From NCBI GenBank assembly GCA_024636495.1, contig JAGXGZ010000050.1:62001-126000 (forward strand): DNA of 64,000 nucleotides, written 5' to 3'. Position 1 is the stretch's first letter. Every line of letters starts with the position of its first letter. The translations under genes and the position numbers were made by a program. This DNA is from Roseobacter sp. Lineage in GTDB: Bacteria; Pseudomonadota; Alphaproteobacteria; Rhodobacterales; Rhodobacteraceae. The notes under the pieces were generated by a model. The model was not told the origin of the DNA. It saw only the letters and a list, made by a program, of their open reading frames with translations, and did no database searches. Positions 277 through 7,241 of this stretch are shown here, one piece after another.

Positions 277-1014
277 ATGACATATCACCCCTTCTCGATT
301 GACGGTCCGGATCGCCCTGCGCGATGGTTGGTCACCTGCGATCACGCCGCCAACACAGTGCCACAGACCATCGCTGGTGGCGATCTGGGCCTGGACGACG
401 CAGATATGGAACGGCATATCGCCTATGATATCGGCGCGGCGGGGGTCTCGCGCGCCTTGGCTGAACGGCTGAACGGACCTGCGATTTTCAGCAACTTTTC
501 GCGTCTGGTGATTGACCCGAACCGGGGCGAAGACGACCCAACACTGCTGATGAAGCTATACGACGGGACCATCATTCCCGCCAACCGCAACGCCGATCAT
601 GCAGAGCGTGAACACCGCCTGAACACCTGTTACCGTCCCTATCATGACGCTTTGGCGAAACTGGCGGCGCGTCCTGCAACGGTGGTCGTGTCCATACACA
701 GCTTTAACCCTCAATTGCGCGGTCGCGCCCCCCGCCCTTGGCAGATCGGCGTGCTTTATGCGCAGGACAAGCGGCTGGCGGCCCCGCTGTTAGACCGTTT
801 GCGGCGCGAACCTGATCTGACCGTCGGCGATAATGAACCCTATTCCGGCCACCTGCCCGGCGACGCGATTGACCGTCACGCCCTGCAACAGGGGCGGCCC
901 AACGTACTGATAGAGCTGCGCAATGATCTTATCGCTGATGCTGCTGGCCAACAGGCTTGGGCGGATCGCTTGGCCCCGATCCTTGAAACCACATTGGCGC
1001 AGACCCAACTTTGA
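277..1014 (+). CDS. N-formylglutamate amidohydrolase family protein
   Basis: 245 aa, matching the N-formylglutamate amidohydrolase (HutG/FGase) family of zinc-dependent hydrolases that release L-glutamate from N-acyl-glutamate, classically at the end of histidine degradation. Visible features are the N-terminal CDHA motif (residues 21-24), the SNFSRLVIDPNR segment (72-83) and VSIHSFNP (138-145), where His residues are expected to bind metal. No hutH, hutU or hutI lies nearby, so a role in histidine use is not supported by context. It is an orphan on the plus strand, followed 17 bp later by the DUF1244 gene. The convergent dgcN-dgcA operon close by needs an N-acetyl-L-Glu deacylase, which makes an acyl-glutamate hydrolase here worth noting, but that link is my inference. 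Confidence 0.8.
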   Translation: MTYHPFSIDGPDRPARWLVTCDHAANTVPQTIAGGDLGLDDADMERHIAYDIGAAGVSRALAERLNGPAIFSNFSRLVIDPNRGEDDPTLLMKLYDGTIIPANRNADHAEREHRLNTCYRPYHDALAKLAARPATVVVSIHSFNPQLRGRAPRPWQIGVLYAQDKRLAAPLLDRLRREPDLTVGDNEPYSGHLPGDAIDRHALQQGRPNVLIELRNDLIADAAGQQAWADRLAPILETTLAQTQL

Positions 1015-1558: not shown

Positions 1559-2464
1559 GTGATGCTTGCTCTGCTTTTTCTACCGGCACTCTTAGGCGCT
1601 GCCCTTCTGGGAAATTTTTTCGACGATAATGATGACGATGAAACCGCAAACGACGAGGCCGCTGCGGAAGAAAAGATTGTCAGCGATGGGTTTGTCGGCA
1701 CGAATGCCCCCGAGTTGCTGACCGCTGATTCCGAGGGCGGTTTTATCGCCAGCAGCGGTGGCAATGACACGATCAATGGCTCTGACAACGGTGATATCCT
1801 GCTTGGTGGTAACGGCGACGATGTGATCTTTGCGCGTGCCGGCAACGATGTGGCTTTAGGCGATGCTGGCAACGACCGCGTCTTTCTGGGCGACGGAAAT
1901 GACGCATACAGCCCCGGAGAGACGAGCTATGCCGAGCTGGCGGGCGACGATCTGGTGCGCGGCGGGGACGGCGACGACTTCATCGTCGATCTGCGCGGAT
2001 CGAACACGCTTTTCGGCGATCTTGGGAGCGACATTCTGATTTCGTTCGACGGGCTCAGCGGCAACGGCATCTATGACAAACCCGGCGAGCTTGGTACCAC
2101 GGACACGCTTTCAGGTGGCTTCGGAAGCGATATTCTGGCCGGGGATGACGGCGATATCATGACAGGCGGCAGAGGTTTCGAGACATTCTATGCCATTGAT
2201 GATGAAGATCCCGATGGTGCCGATGACCTGCGCGAAGTGCGGATCACCGATTTCGACCCCAAGGCTGATGCCCTGATGATCACACATCTGAACGGCAGCC
2301 TGCGCGGCGACATTTCGCTTGATTTCGACGATGCTCAGCAGGGTGTGCGTGCCGCCTATGAAGGACGCCCCGTTGCGTTTCTGGAAGGGCTGAACGCCGA
2401 AGATATCCCGAATATTTACGTTGCAGTGACAACACTTGACGGGTTTTCCCAAGCCGTTGCCTAA
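1559..2464 (+). CDS. Small RTX (haemolysin-type calcium-binding) repeat protein
   Basis: About 300 aa; either GTG at 1559 or the adjacent ATG at 1562 may start translation. The first 18 residues are hydrophobic (signal anchor or signal peptide), followed by a very acidic stretch (FFDDNDDDE). From about residue 65 to 210 there are degenerate Gly/Asp-rich repeats such as GGNGDDVIF and GGDGDDFIV, typical of RTX beta-rolls that bind calcium. RTX proteins are usually exported by a type I system using a C-terminal signal, but no such transporter genes are adjacent. The last 70 residues have no recognised domain. It could be a secreted or surface calcium-binding protein; the function is unknown. A strong hairpin follows the stop codon. 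Confidence 0.75.
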   Translation: MMLALLFLPALLGAALLGNFFDDNDDDETANDEAAAEEKIVSDGFVGTNAPELLTADSEGGFIASSGGNDTINGSDNGDILLGGNGDDVIFARAGNDVALGDAGNDRVFLGDGNDAYSPGETSYAELAGDDLVRGGDGDDFIVDLRGSNTLFGDLGSDILISFDGLSGNGIYDKPGELGTTDTLSGGFGSDILAGDDGDIMTGGRGFETFYAIDDEDPDGADDLREVRITDFDPKADALMITHLNGSLRGDISLDFDDAQQGVRAAYEGRPVAFLEGLNAEDIPNIYVAVTTLDGFSQAVA

Positions 2465-2472
2465 CAAGATTT

Positions 2473-2502
2473 CCCACGCTGCGGAATGACCAGCAGCGTG
2501 GG
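2473..2502. terminator. Bidirectional hairpin between convergent genes
   Basis: A perfect 10-bp inverted repeat, CCCACGCTGC and GCAGCGTGGG, around a 10-nt loop. It lies between the stop codons of the convergent RTX-like gene and the D-amino acid aminotransferase gene. There is no strong T-run on either side, so efficiency is uncertain, but the position fits a shared terminator. Confidence 0.65.
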
Positions 2503-2510
2503 ATGATCCC

Positions 2511-3374
2511 TCAAACCGCCGCCTTGCGCATTTCATCCAGATAGATTTCGCGCAGGCGTGGTGCGATGCGGCCCGGTGTGCCGTCGCCCAAAGCTACACC
2601 GTCAATCTCGACCACAGGCATCACAAAGGCGCTGGCCGAGGTGGTGAATGCCTCGTCCGCCTCTTTCGCCTCGTCGATGGTAAAGTTGCGCTCCTCAACC
2701 TCCATCTGTGCCTCGCGTGCGAAACGCAGAACTGCGGCGCGGGTGATGCCGTGCAAAATATCATTGCTCAGCGCGCGGGTAATGATCTTGTTGCCCTTCA
2801 CGATATAAGCGTTGTTGCTGGTGCCTTCTGTGACAAAGCCATCCTCGACCATCCACGCATCATCGCAGCCGACCTTCTTGGCCATCATCTTGCCCATCGA
2901 CGGGTACAGCAACTGCACCGTCTTGATGTCGCGGCGGCCCCAGCGGATGTCTTCGATGCTGATGACCTTGGCACCTTTTTTGGATGCGGGGCTATCTGCC
3001 ATGCCGGGCTTGTTCTGGGTGAACATCACGATTGTGGGCACCGTGGTTTCAGGGTCAGGAAAGGCAAAATCGCGGTCGCCGTCAGACCCACGGGTGATCT
3101 GCAAATAGATCAAACCTTCGTTGATCTCGTTGGCGCGCACCAACTCGCGATGAACCTCCAACAGGTCCTCCTTCGAGATCGGATTGCGCATGTCCAACTC
3201 GCCCAAGGACCGCTCGAGGCGGATGGCGTGGCCGTCGAAATCGATCAGCTTGCCGTCCAGCACCGATGTGACCTCGTAAACACCGTCAGCCATCAAAAAC
3301 CCCCGATCAAAGATCGAAACTTTCGCTTCGGTCTCGGGCAGGTAGTCGCCGTTTACATATACAGTCCGTGTCAT
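2511..3374 (-). CDS. dat: D-amino acid aminotransferase (class IV PLP enzyme)
   Basis: 287 aa from the ATG at 3374, preceded by GAGAGGG. Fold-type IV aminotransferase, resembling D-alanine transaminase, which exchanges amino groups between D-amino acids and 2-oxo acids, for example D-Ala + 2-oxoglutarate to pyruvate + D-Glu. Visible motifs are the N-terminal VYVNGDYLPETEAKVSIFDRGF, a lysine in the MMAKK segment (about residue 166) at the expected Schiff-base position, and TEGTSNN (182-188), which normally contacts the cofactor. A branched-chain aminotransferase or aminodeoxychorismate lyase is the main alternative within the class; overall similarity and the neighbours favour D-amino acids. 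It is the last gene of the apparent dgcN-dgcA-exonuclease-dat operon, 23 bp after the exonuclease stop. Confidence 0.85.
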   Translation of the reverse strand: MTRTVYVNGDYLPETEAKVSIFDRGFLMADGVYEVTSVLDGKLIDFDGHAIRLERSLGELDMRNPISKEDLLEVHRELVRANEINEGLIYLQITRGSDGDRDFAFPDPETTVPTIVMFTQNKPGMADSPASKKGAKVISIEDIRWGRRDIKTVQLLYPSMGKMMAKKVGCDDAWMVEDGFVTEGTSNNAYIVKGNKIITRALSNDILHGITRAAVLRFAREAQMEVEERNFTIDEAKEADEAFTTSASAFVMPVVEIDGVALGDGTPGRIAPRLREIYLDEMRKAAV

Positions 3375-3397
3375 CTTTGCCCTCTCAATCGCCGGGA

Positions 3398-4018
3398 TCA
3401 TTCCGGCGCAAGCCCTGTGAAATCTGCCGGGGCCAACCGCCCGGCGCGAAGAAGAAATTGCAACGCAACCGCCACCCCTTCGGCATCTGCACGTGCATCA
3501 TGGGCGGGACCGTGCTGTTCCAACCCGTAATGGCCGCAAATTGTGTTGCTGCGCAAGCCACAGATTGTCTCGGGTGTCTCGCCCACCGCCATGAGGATCG
3601 GCGTTGAATTGCGAAACTGTCCGGCAGGGATCGGGCTGAGCTGGTTTTGCACAATTAGCGATGCGGCAAGGGTTAGCAAATCATCCTTGCCCCAGCTCAG
3701 CAACAGCGCGCCATCGGCATCGGTTTTCAGCTCTGATAGCGCGTCCATCAATGGCTGGGCCTCATCTTGCAACAACGCGTCCGTGATGCCGGTAAGGCGG
3801 GTCAGCGGCGGGTCGATGGGAACAATCCGGCCATCGCTGTCTGTGGGTTGCACCATCCAACCCTCCCTTGCCGAAATATCAAACCCGTCGTCCAGCAAAA
3901 GCTGGACCGCACCGATCTGCACGCACAAAGGGTCCGGGTCTTGCGGCCCGCACCAGAACCGCGTCGGCGCCTCGGGGGGCGTTAGAAACTCGCAATCATA
4001 AATGGCCACCTGTGCCAT
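3398..4018 (-). CDS. DEDDh-type 3'-5' exonuclease
   Basis: 206 aa from the ATG at 4018, one base after the dgcA stop (TAG-T-ATG), so translation is probably coupled. All acidic positions of the DEDDh family are visible: D8-x-E10 in IYDCEF, D112 in WGKDD, and the HDARAD motif with H173, D174 and D178. These metal-dependent enzymes trim DNA or RNA 3' ends; relatives include DnaQ epsilon, RNase T and oligoribonuclease, but the sequence does not clearly join one of these. It sits between genes of D-amino acid metabolism, which is unexpected for a nuclease and may only reflect operon sharing. An extended start at 4066 would run into dgcA and has no better ribosome binding site. Confidence 0.8.
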   Translation of the reverse strand: MAQVAIYDCEFLTPPEAPTRFWCGPQDPDPLCVQIGAVQLLLDDGFDISAREGWMVQPTDSDGRIVPIDPPLTRLTGITDALLQDEAQPLMDALSELKTDADGALLLSWGKDDLLTLAASLIVQNQLSPIPAGQFRNSTPILMAVGETPETICGLRSNTICGHYGLEQHGPAHDARADAEGVAVALQFLLRAGRLAPADFTGLAPE

Positions 4019-4019
4019 A

Positions 4020-4985
4020 CTATCCCCACAACGCAGCCGACGGCGGATGCACGCCGGACGCGTCAAAGATCAACGCGTTCTCGCGATCTTCGGCCAGCAG
4101 CAATGGCCCGTCAAGGTCGACCACCTTGGCTCCCTGCGCCACCAGCGTTGCCGGTGCCATCGCCAGCGATGAACCGACCATGCAGCCGACCATCACGTCG
4201 TAGCCTTGCGCAAGTGCGGCATCGCGCAACGACAATGCTTCGGTCAGGCCGCCGGTCTTATCAAGCTTGATGTTCACGACATCATATTTGCCTTTCAGCG
4301 CGGCAAGGCTCTCACGGTCATGGCAGCTTTCGTCTGCACACACAGGGACAGGTCTGTCCATTCCGATCAACGCGTCGTCGTCTCCGGCAGGTAAAGGCTG
4401 CTCGACCAGCGCCACGCCAAGCCTGACCAAATGTGGGGCCAGATCGGCATACACCTCTGCCGACCAGCCTTCATTCGCATCGATGATGATCGTCGCATCA
4501 GGCGCACCAGCGCGCACAGCCTCGAGCCTTGGCATGTCGTCCGGCGTGCCCAGCTTGATTTTCAGCAAGGGCCGATGCGCATGCAAAGCTGCCTGTTCGC
4601 GCATCTTCTCGGGGCTGTCCAACGACAGGGTATAGGCCGTGATCTCTGGCCGCGGAGACTTCAGCCCCGCCAGTTCCCAAACCCGCTTGCCAGCTTTCTT
4701 GGCCTCAAGATCCCACAACGCGCAATCCACCGCATTGCGCGCAGCGCCCGCTGGCAACAGATCGTACAGCGCCGCACGATCAAAACTGCCCGGCAAACCT
4801 TCGATCTCGGCGGTCACGCTCTCAAGCGTTTCATCATATCGGGCATAGGGCACACATTCACCCCAACCCATCACACCGTCATCGGTGATCCGAACGGTCA
4901 GCACCTTTGCCTCGGTCCGGGACCCGCGCGAAATGGTAAAGACCTGTGCCAGTCGAAACACGTCCCGACTTACTTCAATACGCAT
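4020..4985 (-). CDS. dgcA: N-acetyl-D-glutamate racemase DgcA (enolase superfamily, dipeptide-epimerase-like)
   Basis: 321 aa, muconate-cycloisomerase subgroup of the enolase superfamily. The two-base machinery is visible: K142-x-K144 (KIKLG) on one face and K240 in NIKLDKTGG on the other, with Mg ligands at D169 (DANEGW), E195 (VEQPL) and D218 (CADES). By sequence alone it would be called an L-Ala-D/L-Glu epimerase. Its pairing with a DUF1611 gene 45 bp upstream matches the DgcN-DgcA route described in marine bacteria, where this protein racemises N-acetyl-D-Glu to N-acetyl-L-Glu. The dipeptide-epimerase activity (murein peptide recycling) remains the alternative; no mpaA or ldcA-type recycling genes are adjacent. 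Confidence 0.8.
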   Translation of the reverse strand: MRIEVSRDVFRLAQVFTISRGSRTEAKVLTVRITDDGVMGWGECVPYARYDETLESVTAEIEGLPGSFDRAALYDLLPAGAARNAVDCALWDLEAKKAGKRVWELAGLKSPRPEITAYTLSLDSPEKMREQAALHAHRPLLKIKLGTPDDMPRLEAVRAGAPDATIIIDANEGWSAEVYADLAPHLVRLGVALVEQPLPAGDDDALIGMDRPVPVCADESCHDRESLAALKGKYDVVNIKLDKTGGLTEALSLRDAALAQGYDVMVGCMVGSSLAMAPATLVAQGAKVVDLDGPLLLAEDRENALIFDASGVHPPSAALWG

Positions 4986-5030
4986 GATCGCTCCTTCATT
5001 TTGCCAGACAAACTCTCCCCGAAGGGCCGA

Positions 5031-6032
5031 CTAGAGGGATGCCAAAGCATCAGCCAGCTTGGCAGCCCCTTGGCGGAACGGGTCAACGGCAGGCAATCCC
5101 AGCCGCGCTTCAACCTCGGCCAGATACGCCTCTGCCTCGGCCAGGGACATATGCTGCGTGTTGATCGAAATTCCCATGACCTTGCAATTTGCGTTGGCAA
5201 CTTTTGCCATGGTCAGCGCGGTATCGCGCACATCTTCCAGACTGGGCAACGTGTAATCAGGCAAGCCGCGCATCGTCTTGCGGGTCGGCTCGTGGCACAG
5301 GATCAGCGCATCGGGCTGGCCACCATGGATCAAAGCAAGGCTCACCCCTGAATAGGACACGTGGAAAAGACTACCCTGCCCCTCGATCACATCCCAATGG
5401 TCTGCGTCGTTATCGGGGGTCAGATATTCAATCGACCCGGCCATGAAATCGGCGACAACGGCGTCAAGCGGCACGCCGTCACCGGTGATCAAAATACCGG
5501 TTTGGCCCGTGGCGCGGAAACTGCACTTCATGCCCTTTTCCTTCATCGCCGCATCCAGTGCCAAGGCGGTATACATCTTGCCAACGGAACAATCGGTCCC
5601 CACCGCAAGCACCCGCTTGCCCGTGCGTTTAACACCACTGGCGATCGGATATTTCACCGATGGGATACGCACGTCATGCAGGCTGCGCCCATGCTTTTGC
5701 GCGGTGCTGACCAGATCGGCCTCGTCGCGCAACAGGTTATGCAGGCCCGATGCCAGATCAAAACCCATCTCAAGCGCCTCGATCAGTATTGTTTTCCAAG
5801 CAGCACTGATGATGCCGCCCCGGTTGGCAACGCCGATCACAAGGGTCTTGGCCCCTGCTTCCCTGGCCTGAGCCAACGTCATATCGGGAATACCCAAATC
5901 GGCCTTGCAGGCGTCCATCCGCAACTGGGCGACCGCGTTGTCAGGCCGCCAGTCCTTGATCCCTTGGGCAACCTTGACCGCAAGCTGGTCAGGCGCATCG
6001 CCTAGAAATAGAAGATATGGTGTTTCGATCAT
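5031..6032 (-). CDS. dgcN: D-glutamate N-acetyltransferase DgcN (DUF1611 family)
   Basis: 333 aa from the ATG at 6032, with GGAG upstream; the open frame continues further 5' but the extension is not protein-like. DUF1611 family, with an N-terminal Rossmann-like domain (1-130) and a C-terminal P-loop-type domain carrying GTDCSVGK (145-152). The family was long annotated as NAD-dependent epimerase-like or as unknown. Its members paired with dgcA have been described as N-acetyltransferases of D-Glu, the first step of D-Glu catabolism in marine Proteobacteria. It is the first gene of the four-gene minus-strand operon and is divergent from the malyl-CoA lyase gene across a 249-bp AT-rich gap. The call rests on family membership and gene pairing. 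Confidence 0.8.
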   Translation of the reverse strand: MIETPYLLFLGDAPDQLAVKVAQGIKDWRPDNAVAQLRMDACKADLGIPDMTLAQAREAGAKTLVIGVANRGGIISAAWKTILIEALEMGFDLASGLHNLLRDEADLVSTAQKHGRSLHDVRIPSVKYPIASGVKRTGKRVLAVGTDCSVGKMYTALALDAAMKEKGMKCSFRATGQTGILITGDGVPLDAVVADFMAGSIEYLTPDNDADHWDVIEGQGSLFHVSYSGVSLALIHGGQPDALILCHEPTRKTMRGLPDYTLPSLEDVRDTALTMAKVANANCKVMGISINTQHMSLAEAEAYLAEVEARLGLPAVDPFRQGAAKLADALASL

Positions 6033-6281
6033 GATCAGGCTCTCCAACAAATGGCTTCGCGTCAGTTTCGTTGTTTCTTGCCGCAAAGAGGTTGCAAATG
6101 CACGCAAAGAACAAGGGAGTGTCGATGAATATTGCAACAAATTAAACAATTGCAGAATATTTATGCACGCCGCCGCACCGCCTAATGCTGCAACTGCGAA
6201 ATCCGGCTTGCGACCTACCGCGTAATTTAATACCAGCTTGATCGACCCAGCCGAAACATAATTACCCAAGGAACTCTGAAC
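6033..6281. promoter_or_regulatory. Divergent promoter region between dgcN and the malyl-CoA lyase gene
   Basis: 249 bases, clearly more AT-rich than the flanking genes, with no gene. Several TTGCAA and GCAAA words cluster here: CCGCAAAG near 6081, GTTGCAAATG at 6091-6100, CGCAAAG near 6103, ATTGCAAC at 6131-6138 and AATTGCAG at 6148-6154. The last two form an imperfect inverted repeat around ACAAATTAAAC. TTTGCAA-like sites are known for ScfR/RamB/PccR regulators of short-chain acyl-CoA metabolism, so one could control the lyase gene. This is a suggestion from motif likeness only. Confidence 0.45.
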
Positions 6282-7241
6282 ATGAGCTTTCGCATTCAGC
6301 CCGCACCGCCCGCACGCCCCAACCGTTGCCAATTGTTTGGACCGGGTTCGCGCCCGGCTATTTTCGAGAAAATGGCAAGCTCGGCCGCTGATGTGATCAA
6401 TATCGACCTTGAAGACAGCGTAGCACCGTCAGACAAGGACAGTGCACGTGTCAATGTGATCAAGGCTATCAACGAAGTTGACTGGGGCAACAAAACCCTA
6501 TCGGTGCGGATCAACGGGCTGGATACGCCCTATTGGTACCGCGACGTGGTTGATCTGCTTGAGCAGGCCAGCGACCGTCTGGACCAGATCATGATCCCCA
6601 AGGTTGGGTGTGCCGCAGACGTCTATGCCGTCGATGCGCTCGTTACGGCGATTGAGGCTGCCAAAGGGCGCACAAAGCGCATTGCCTTTGAGGTAATCAT
6701 CGAATCAGCCGCCGGGATCGCGCATGTCGAAGAGATCGCGGCCTCAAGCCCACGGTTGGAAGCGATGAGCCTGGGTGCCGCTGATTTCGCCGCCTCGATG
6801 GGAATGCAGACCACCGGAATTGGTGGGACGCAGGAAAATTACTACATGCTGCATGATGGGGTAAAGCACTGGTCCGATCCATGGCATTGGGCACAGACCG
6901 CGATTGTCGCCGCCTGCCGGACCCACGGCGTCTTGCCTGTTGATGGACCGTTCGGTGATTTTTCGGATGACGAAGGGTGCCGCGCGCAGGCCCGCAGGTC
7001 GGCGACGCTGGGCATGGTTGGCAAATGGGCCATCCACCCCAAACAGATTGCTATCTCGAACGAGGTGTTCACCCCGTCAGACGAAGCCGTGGCAGAGGCC
7101 CGCGAGATTTTGGCCGCCATGGAAACGGCCAAAGCCAACGGAGAAGGCGCGACAGTCTATAAAGGTCGCTTGGTCGATATCGCCAGCATCAAGCAGGCTG
7201 AGGTCATCGTGCGCCAGTCCGAGATGATCTCGAAGCGCTGA
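6282..7241 (+). CDS. mcl1: L-malyl-CoA/beta-methylmalyl-CoA lyase (HpcH/HpaI aldolase, CitE-like)
   Basis: 319 aa, ATG at 6282 after AAGGA. CitE/HpcH family lyase closely resembling alphaproteobacterial Mcl1, which cleaves L-malyl-CoA to acetyl-CoA and glyoxylate and beta-methylmalyl-CoA to propionyl-CoA and glyoxylate in the ethylmalonyl-CoA pathway. Motifs are the NRCQLFGPGSRPAIFEKM N-terminus with the phosphate-binding Arg, INIDLEDSV with an acidic pair, EVIIESAAGI with the catalytic-region Glu, and GKWAIHPKQI near the C-terminus. The other pathway genes (ccr, ecm, mcd) are not in the window. It is transcribed away from dgcN and is followed by the interspersed hairpin repeat. Confidence 0.88.
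   Translation: MSFRIQPAPPARPNRCQLFGPGSRPAIFEKMASSAADVINIDLEDSVAPSDKDSARVNVIKAINEVDWGNKTLSVRINGLDTPYWYRDVVDLLEQASDRLDQIMIPKVGCAADVYAVDALVTAIEAAKGRTKRIAFEVIIESAAGIAHVEEIAASSPRLEAMSLGAADFAASMGMQTTGIGGTQENYYMLHDGVKHWSDPWHWAQTAIVAACRTHGVLPVDGPFGDFSDDEGCRAQARRSATLGMVGKWAIHPKQIAISNEVFTPSDEAVAEAREILAAMETAKANGEGATVYKGRLVDIASIKQAEVIVRQSEMISKR

Follow-up and report, generated by a model that had tools for sequence, protein, structure and literature searches.

A predicted D-glutamate catabolism operon of the Rhodobacteraceae, dgcN-dgcA-daat, with a probable exonuclease passenger

The locus

The window analysed here is a 64,000-nucleotide stretch of Roseobacter sp. DNA (contig JAGXGZ010000050.1, positions 62,001 to 126,000), in which four open reading frames (ORFs) between positions 2511 and 6032 encode two enzymes of D-glutamate catabolism, DgcN and DgcA, a DEDDh exonuclease, and a D-amino-acid transaminase (DAAT). 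The original prediction had read them as a four-gene operon converting D-amino acids to L-glutamate. All four ORFs lie on the minus strand, with gaps of 45 bp between dgcN and dgcA, 1 bp between dgcA and the exonuclease gene, and 23 bp between the exonuclease and aminotransferase genes, as that prediction had it in direction, coordinates, and spacing. The locus is probably best explained as a D-glutamate catabolism operon of the Rhodobacteraceae, dgcN-dgcA-daat, with the exonuclease a single-gene passenger in a permissive slot between dgcA and daat and no component of the pathway. Gene identities (by model), conservation, slot occupancy, the intact motif, coupling geometry, and the conflicting trees were computed directly.

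5031..6032, minus strand: dgcN, D-glutamate N-acetyltransferase (DUF1611 N and C domains), 333 amino acids; NF041892, PF07755, and PF17396
4020..4985, minus strand: dgcA, N-acetyl-D-glutamate racemase of the enolase superfamily, 321 amino acids; NF042940
3398..4018, minus strand: DEDDh 3'-5' exonuclease gene, 206 amino acids, assigned by its DEDDh residues and predicted fold; probably occasional cargo in the dgcA-daat slot
3375..4019: dgcA-daat slot, 645 bp between the two genes, occupied in the window by the exonuclease gene
2511..3374, minus strand: daat, class IV aminotransferase of the D-amino-acid transaminase subfamily PRK06680, 287 amino acids

A scan of window positions 2400-6350 found no sigma-70-like internal promoter, and terminator-like sites there are near the level of shuffled sequence (5 versus 3.8).

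The identities claimed for the three enzymes are supported by curated models. DgcN passes the NF041892 equivalog cut-off (551.8 versus 480 bits), and its closest solved chain is 7xrj_A (E 1.7e-169). DgcA, adjacent to dgcN and 45 bp downstream of it, passes the NF042940 equivalog cut-off (511.4 versus 400 bits) and falls under that of the L-Ala-D/L-Glu epimerase model PRK15129 (319.5 versus 343 bits); its closest solved chains are 4gfi_A and 1jpd_X. The aminotransferase passes the PRK06680 subfamily cut-off (374.5 versus 320 bits) and misses the TIGR01121 equivalog cut-off (235.2 versus 277.45 bits). It resembles the D-amino-acid transaminase of Bacillus sp. YM-1 (1daa) in belonging to class IV and in its catalytic lysine (K151), glutamate (E183), tyrosine (Y33), and first trap arginine (R101). 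Unlike that enzyme, it has F103 at the position of YM-1 His100 and misses the equivalog cut-off. The residues Y33, R101, F103, K151, and E183 are kept in all 87 aligned sequences, the window's included, and the Tyr/Arg/His trap of the canonical enzyme is thus incomplete throughout, with Tyr33 and Arg101 kept and His replaced by Phe103, a substitution that may affect specificity.

Conservation of the operon

A survey of 198 genomes of the window's family, covering 197 genera, detected DgcA in 171 (E <= 1e-40), DAAT in 187 (E <= 1e-75), DgcN in 151 (E <= 1e-75), and exonuclease relatives in 20 (E <= 1e-3), 17 of them full-length and three (G001, G063, and G098) weak, split, or fragmentary. Adjacency was counted among listed genomes, comprising 150 of the 171 DgcA positives, 150 of the 187 DAAT positives, and 150 of the 151 DgcN positives. 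The proposed link of the aminotransferase to dgcNA is conserved: DAAT lies downstream of dgcA within 5 kb on the same strand in 129 of the 131 genomes with both genes listed, and directly adjacent to it in 99, where the gap is at most 150 bp (median 12 bp). The gap measures 151-5000 bp in 30 genomes, and the last two have the genes on opposite strands (one) or different contigs (one). Among the 19 listed dgcA genomes lacking a listed DAAT, 13 were examined; DAAT adjoins dgcA in 12 and stands behind an insert in G048. The exonuclease gene is found between dgcA and daat in just 6 of the 131 genomes (G000, G003, G009, G140, G173, and G181), and on this count the four-gene functional unit is not supported.

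Of 142 genomes sampled from the class, 39 have a match to dgcN, which in 37 scores above the cut-off. In 29 of the 30 loci read from this sample, dgcN has dgcA as its neighbour; DAAT adjoins dgcA in 2, of which one belongs to the window's family. These loci extend ~500 bp past dgcA, so that a DAAT behind an insert, as in the window, would be missed. The wider core would seem to be dgcN-dgcA, to which DAAT has been added chiefly at the level of the family, whereas the exonuclease occurs sporadically.

The dgcA-daat junction

The junction between dgcA and daat is a slot that accepts unrelated genes, and no other gene occupies it as often in the sample as the exonuclease gene. The 30 inserts found there are of mixed content, 6 holding the exonuclease gene and 24 mostly unrelated genes, as follows.

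Metallophosphoesterase: four genomes (G052, G153, G127, G144)
NUDIX: four genomes (G082, G112, G020 broken, G157 degraded), plus a remnant in G002
YdcZ-type transporter, opposite strand: three genomes (G005, G076, G064)
IlvD: three genomes (G163, G179, G152)
Abhydrolase: two genomes (G084, G011)
One genome each: DUF4189-like, below the family cut-off (G097); DUF6544 (G031); DUF3800 (G103)
Other ORFs: G094; short or unassigned: G119, G126, G104

Two operonic loci have the exonuclease gene sharing the slot, with a NUDIX gene in L083 and with a YdcZ gene in L028. As a control, the dgcN-dgcA junction measures 151-5000 bp in only 2 of 111 comparable genomes (the larger 184 bp), versus 27 for the dgcA-DAAT junction; the discordance of 26 to 1 gives p = 4e-7 in a sign test that treats genomes as independent, which holds only in part for related genera. 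In G062, outside those 111, dgcN lies ~64 kb away.

The NUDIX copies appear broken at L159 (G020), degraded at L165 (G157), and as a remnant at L172 (G002), which suggests decay after insertion. Hidden, divergent exonucleases in the other inserts were sought with a hidden Markov model of the collected exonucleases in 40 loci, and none was convincing, the best match (E 0.027) falling in the abhydrolase insert of G011.

The exonuclease and its coupling to dgcA

The catalytic residues of DEDDh nucleases follow the pattern DxE, D, and Hx4D. In the window protein and its relatives, D8, E10, D112, H173, and D178 are invariant in 17 of 17 aligned sequences, and the DEDDh label given earlier holds because of this invariance. 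Searched against Pfam and NCBIfam, the window protein has no match at E <= 0.01, and at E <= 1 it still matches no family, RNase_T (PF00929) included; that model is matched at E <= 1 by 13 of the 17 members of the alignment (best 8.7e-7). Sequence searches of the PDB gave weak matches only. An AlphaFold2 model (pLDDT 90.3, pTM 0.88) found its best Foldseek match in 1w0h (3'hExo/ERI1; E 2.8e-8, TMq 0.73), and the 50 matches shown are DEDD-type nucleases or larger proteins bearing such a domain. The protein is like ERI1/3'hExo and the DnaQ domain of Streptococcus thermophilus (8h2f; TMq 0.62) in predicted fold and in its full DEDDh set, and unlike them in sequence (17 and 19% identity, respectively, in the structural alignment) and in a conserved RFWCGPxDPDP stretch. 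By sequence, the exonucleases constitute an alphaproteobacterial family of their own, and the window protein, with its predicted fold and residues, is likely to be active as a 3'-5' nuclease, with RNA or single-stranded DNA as substrate.

At 20 of 21 loci, the exonuclease gene begins no more than 4 bases before or after the dgcA stop (-4 to +4), the window being counted, where the start codon lies 1 bp after the stop; start codons were script-chosen as those nearest the expected position, and L107 was left out. The exonuclease is therefore probably translated by coupling to dgcA. The sequence TGGGG immediately precedes the dgcA stop in the 33 loci listed (a Trp-Gly-stop end), and could serve as a ribosome site. 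The ratio of nonsynonymous to synonymous substitution (dN/dS) is 0.07-0.23 in 9 of 10 pairs, a rough estimate as dS is high in most pairs and saturated in the tenth, and indicates that the gene is under purifying selection. The tightly coupled nuclease, which the original prediction left unexplained, is now read as a passenger.

Inheritance of the exonuclease gene

A scan of public genomes recovered 182 relatives of the exonuclease, of which the 80 nearest to the window's copy were kept, a choice that over-represents operonic copies; the same operon order occurs in 16 of these best 80. In a tree of 90 exonuclease rows, operonic copies fall in one clade of 23 rows, 21 of which are operonic (L078 and L036 are the two that are not), while the remaining 67 rows contain no operonic copy. 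Mapped on a DgcA tree of 83 rows, exonuclease presence needs 18 changes, compared with a mean of 18.7 for shuffled labels; the rows are a non-random set of 21 exonuclease carriers and 62 others, mainly best matches and insert-bearing genomes.

The tree of the exonuclease conflicts with those of its neighbours. For 20 operonic loci, the window included, the approximately unbiased (AU) test has the exonuclease topology and the topology of the concatenated enzymes reject each other, with p below 1e-45. When the gene trees are compared on the 17 rows common to them, the exonuclease has strongly supported splits that contradict those of DgcN (3), DgcA (3), DAAT (4), and CitE (3), and the six other gene pairs have 0-1 such conflicts. 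Both analyses left out L107, which has the same sequence as L031, and L093, a near copy of L027. Moreover, the exonucleases of two locus pairs are less divergent than their enzymes, with ratios of 0.64 for L079-L086 and 0.70 for L022-L135 (median 2.8). Transfer into the same site is the preferred reading, over multiple loss with fast evolution. A fuller version of it, which we hold tentatively and at a little under even confidence, is that the junction works as a cargo-exchange slot, where unrelated single genes swap across genera of the Rhodobacteraceae by recombination in the flanking enzyme genes, the TGGGG at the end of dgcA may serve as a ribosome site through which an arrival directly behind it is expressed immediately, and the exonuclease has been passed between genera with codon precision.

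Identities between the window and the Sulfitobacter noctilucae locus (L075) are unequal, at 94% for the aminotransferase, 84% for dgcA, 76% for dgcN, and 58% for the exonuclease, hinting at mosaic descent of the operon. A phage origin of the exonuclease was considered and rejected: a pattern scan of viral contigs yielded 173 candidate stretches with no relative among them, and phage records gave no match. Fourteen plasmid records carry relatives, all from Rhizobium, Agrobacterium, Ensifer, or Phyllobacterium and at <60% identity; the relatives at L191, L194, and L195 are carried by rhizobial plasmids classed as conjugative, and their neighbours differ. At L038 (G001), a non-operonic relative is split into two overlapping reading frames.

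The predicted pathway

The DgcN-DgcA pathway of D-glutamate catabolism is said to have been set out by Yu et al. in 2023 (ISME J 17:537). The window resembles it in that both enzymes exceed their NCBIfam equivalog cut-offs and their genes are adjacent, and differs in that a D-amino-acid transaminase is attached in the window's family and, in the window, an exonuclease gene stands between dgcA and daat. In the D-glutamate route, N-acetyl-L-glutamate is finally deacylated. With all pathway activities taken from family membership, the transaminase would move amino groups from D-amino acids such as D-alanine onto 2-oxoglutarate to give D-glutamate, or would use D-glutamate directly; DgcN would acetylate D-glutamate, DgcA would racemise N-acetyl-D-glutamate to N-acetyl-L-glutamate, and a deacylase encoded elsewhere would release L-glutamate. 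DAAT could thereby feed the D-glutamate route from D-alanine and other D-amino acids. This three-enzyme reading is plausible and amounts mostly to known chemistry in a conserved family arrangement; every catalytic activity in it, like the shared transcript and the passenger status, is something that we infer.

According to passages of three papers, D-glutamate can be acetylated and then racemised as N-acetylglutamate (PMC12363236, PMC10845958, PMC11747546). Passages on strain LCG007, a member of the Rhodobacteraceae that its authors place in GTDB Sulfitobacter_E, report growth on D-Glu, D-Ala, D-Phe, D-Lys, and D-Ser (PMC11747546). As in the window, a D-amino acid transaminase, a D-glutamate N-acetyltransferase, and an N-acetyl-D-glutamate racemase are annotated in that strain; those passages do not give the gene order or mention an exonuclease (PMC11747546). 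A literature search that included parts of PMC12363236, PMC10845958, PMC11747546, and PMC9790009, the founding ISME J and AEM papers being outside it, did not find the dgcN-dgcA-daat operon or its exonuclease described, and no claim is made that these are unpublished.

DAAT as the sole source of wall D-glutamate was also considered, and is weakened by a MurI-like gene in the genome (E 1.1e-41, 143.5 bits, cut-off 146.65).

Alternative explanations

Several findings weigh against the reading of a D-glutamate operon with a transferred passenger. A random passenger could be less faithful than this gene, which stays coupled to dgcA at 20 of 21 operonic loci and whose clade of 23 has just 2 members elsewhere. 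On the DgcA tree, the branches with good support require no more than 3 changes in the presence of the exonuclease. The exonuclease evolves faster than the enzymes (median rate ratio 2.8), and the tree conflict could come partly from this or from hidden paralogy; in addition, the enzyme trees are poorly resolved, with 0-2 of 14 splits common to the gene trees and no firm species tree. Nor do the flanks carry a clear footprint of co-transfer: of ten pairs, three have z of 2.0, 2.3, and 1.5 at the 3' sixth of dgcA and the other seven lie between -0.5 and 0.8, with no general rise over the first sixth of DAAT. Some of these points would suit an exonuclease that was an ancestral member of the Rhodobacteraceae operon and was lost many times, its odd tree being due to fast evolution, which at ~2.8 times the rate of the enzymes can blur trees, rather than to transfer; the single operonic clade, near-constant coupling, and the few forced changes all favour it. 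Such an ancestry is conceivable and on balance unlikely, given that the exonuclease and enzyme topologies are rejected both ways by the AU test on 20 rows (p below 1e-45), that the exonucleases of L022-L135 (0.70) and L079-L086 (0.64) are closer than their enzymes against a median of 2.8, and that exonuclease presence on the DgcA tree is no more clustered than shuffled labels.

A role for the exonuclease in the biology of the pathway, such as scavenging nucleic acid along with wall debris under selection for co-expression, would account for the tight translational coupling and purifying selection, and for the phosphohydrolases (metallophosphoesterase and NUDIX) among the other occupants of the slot. 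It would also fit the fact, awkward for a passenger, that 3 of the 64 non-operonic loci among the best 80 of 182 relatives are near dgc genes, with the exonuclease of L081 (Arenibacterium) ~3 kb from dgcN and those of L148 and L150 (two Mesorhizobium) ~4 kb from a dgcA. We consider this role improbable, with the exonuclease in just 6 of 131 operons, IlvD, an opposite-strand transporter, and other unrelated families in the same slot, and neighbours of the inspected non-operonic copies that vary by locus. Trimming or degradation of the operon's own mRNA to set daat output would draw on the predicted fold, nearest to ERI1-type RNA exonucleases, and on the position of the gene directly upstream of daat; it is highly improbable, as 99 of 131 operons have no room for an exonuclease.

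The single route from D-amino acids to L-glutamate that was first proposed keeps its enzyme identities and its DAAT link, and is weakened by the 16 of 150 listed dgcA genomes in which no dgcN match is detected at E <= 1e-75 and DAAT is kept beside dgcA. Fifteen of the 16 have a listed DAAT, linked to dgcA in all 15, and the sixteenth, G131, is linked too; G185, dgcN-positive in the survey table, was excluded from this count. From the persistence of dgcA-DAAT where no dgcN is detected, dgcA is probably of use in the absence of DgcN, and this speaks for a role of the pair outside the DgcN route. One such use would be mainly in peptidoglycan recycling, with DgcA an L-Ala-D/L-Glu dipeptide epimerase, DAAT removing D-alanine, and DgcN adding a D-glutamate branch in most, though not all, lineages. 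To the support from the 16 genomes can be added the 319.5 bits of DgcA on the dipeptide epimerase model and the identity of its second solved relative, the L-Ala-D/L-Glu epimerase 1jpd. Recycling as the main role nevertheless seems doubtful, because DgcA lies 111 bits over the DgcA equivalog cut-off and under that for the epimerase, because the DgcA of the dgcN-less genome G055, of the same genus as the window, scores likewise (503.2 bits on the DgcA model and 315.8 on the epimerase model), and because, across the class sample, dgcN-dgcA occurs more widely than dgcA-DAAT. In G055, at loci L044 and L188, dgcN is missing and dgcA-daat and the divergent CitE-like gene are in place, and these loci are a natural test of DgcA without DgcN.

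Neighbouring genes

The genes around the operon were compared over 23 dgc loci, of which 21 carry the exonuclease gene (L031 is identical in sequence to L107) and 2, L187 and L188, lack it.

6282..7241, plus strand: HpcH/HpaI aldolase (CitE-like lyase; PF03328), a divergent conserved neighbour of dgcN
277..1014, plus strand: N-formylglutamate amidohydrolase family gene (PF05013, 159 bits), a convergent neighbour

The CitE-like gene is present in 20 of the 23 loci, and the N-formylglutamate amidohydrolase family gene, 1.5 kb beyond daat in the window, in 12, several loci being cut short. The latter is a candidate deacylase for N-acetyl-L-glutamate, and its recurrence may be mere conserved gene order. 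Together with a DUF1244 gene, which recurs beside the operon in 15 of the 23 loci, it converges on the operon at 277-1346 on the plus strand. An RTX calcium-binding repeat protein gene (1559-2464, plus strand) adjoins daat and is matched in 2 of the 23.

Implications

Even at a distance of 1 bp, the next gene of an operon may have no part in its pathway, a correction to functional readings based on gene order alone. Reading the exonuclease as a passenger answers the puzzle of the nuclease but makes the four-gene unit ordinary, and draws attention to a genomic slot at which a metabolic operon has repeatedly taken in unrelated genes. For the marine Rhodobacteraceae, a D-amino-acid transaminase is supported as an addition to the DgcN-DgcA route, and would connect the recycling of D-alanine and D-glutamate.

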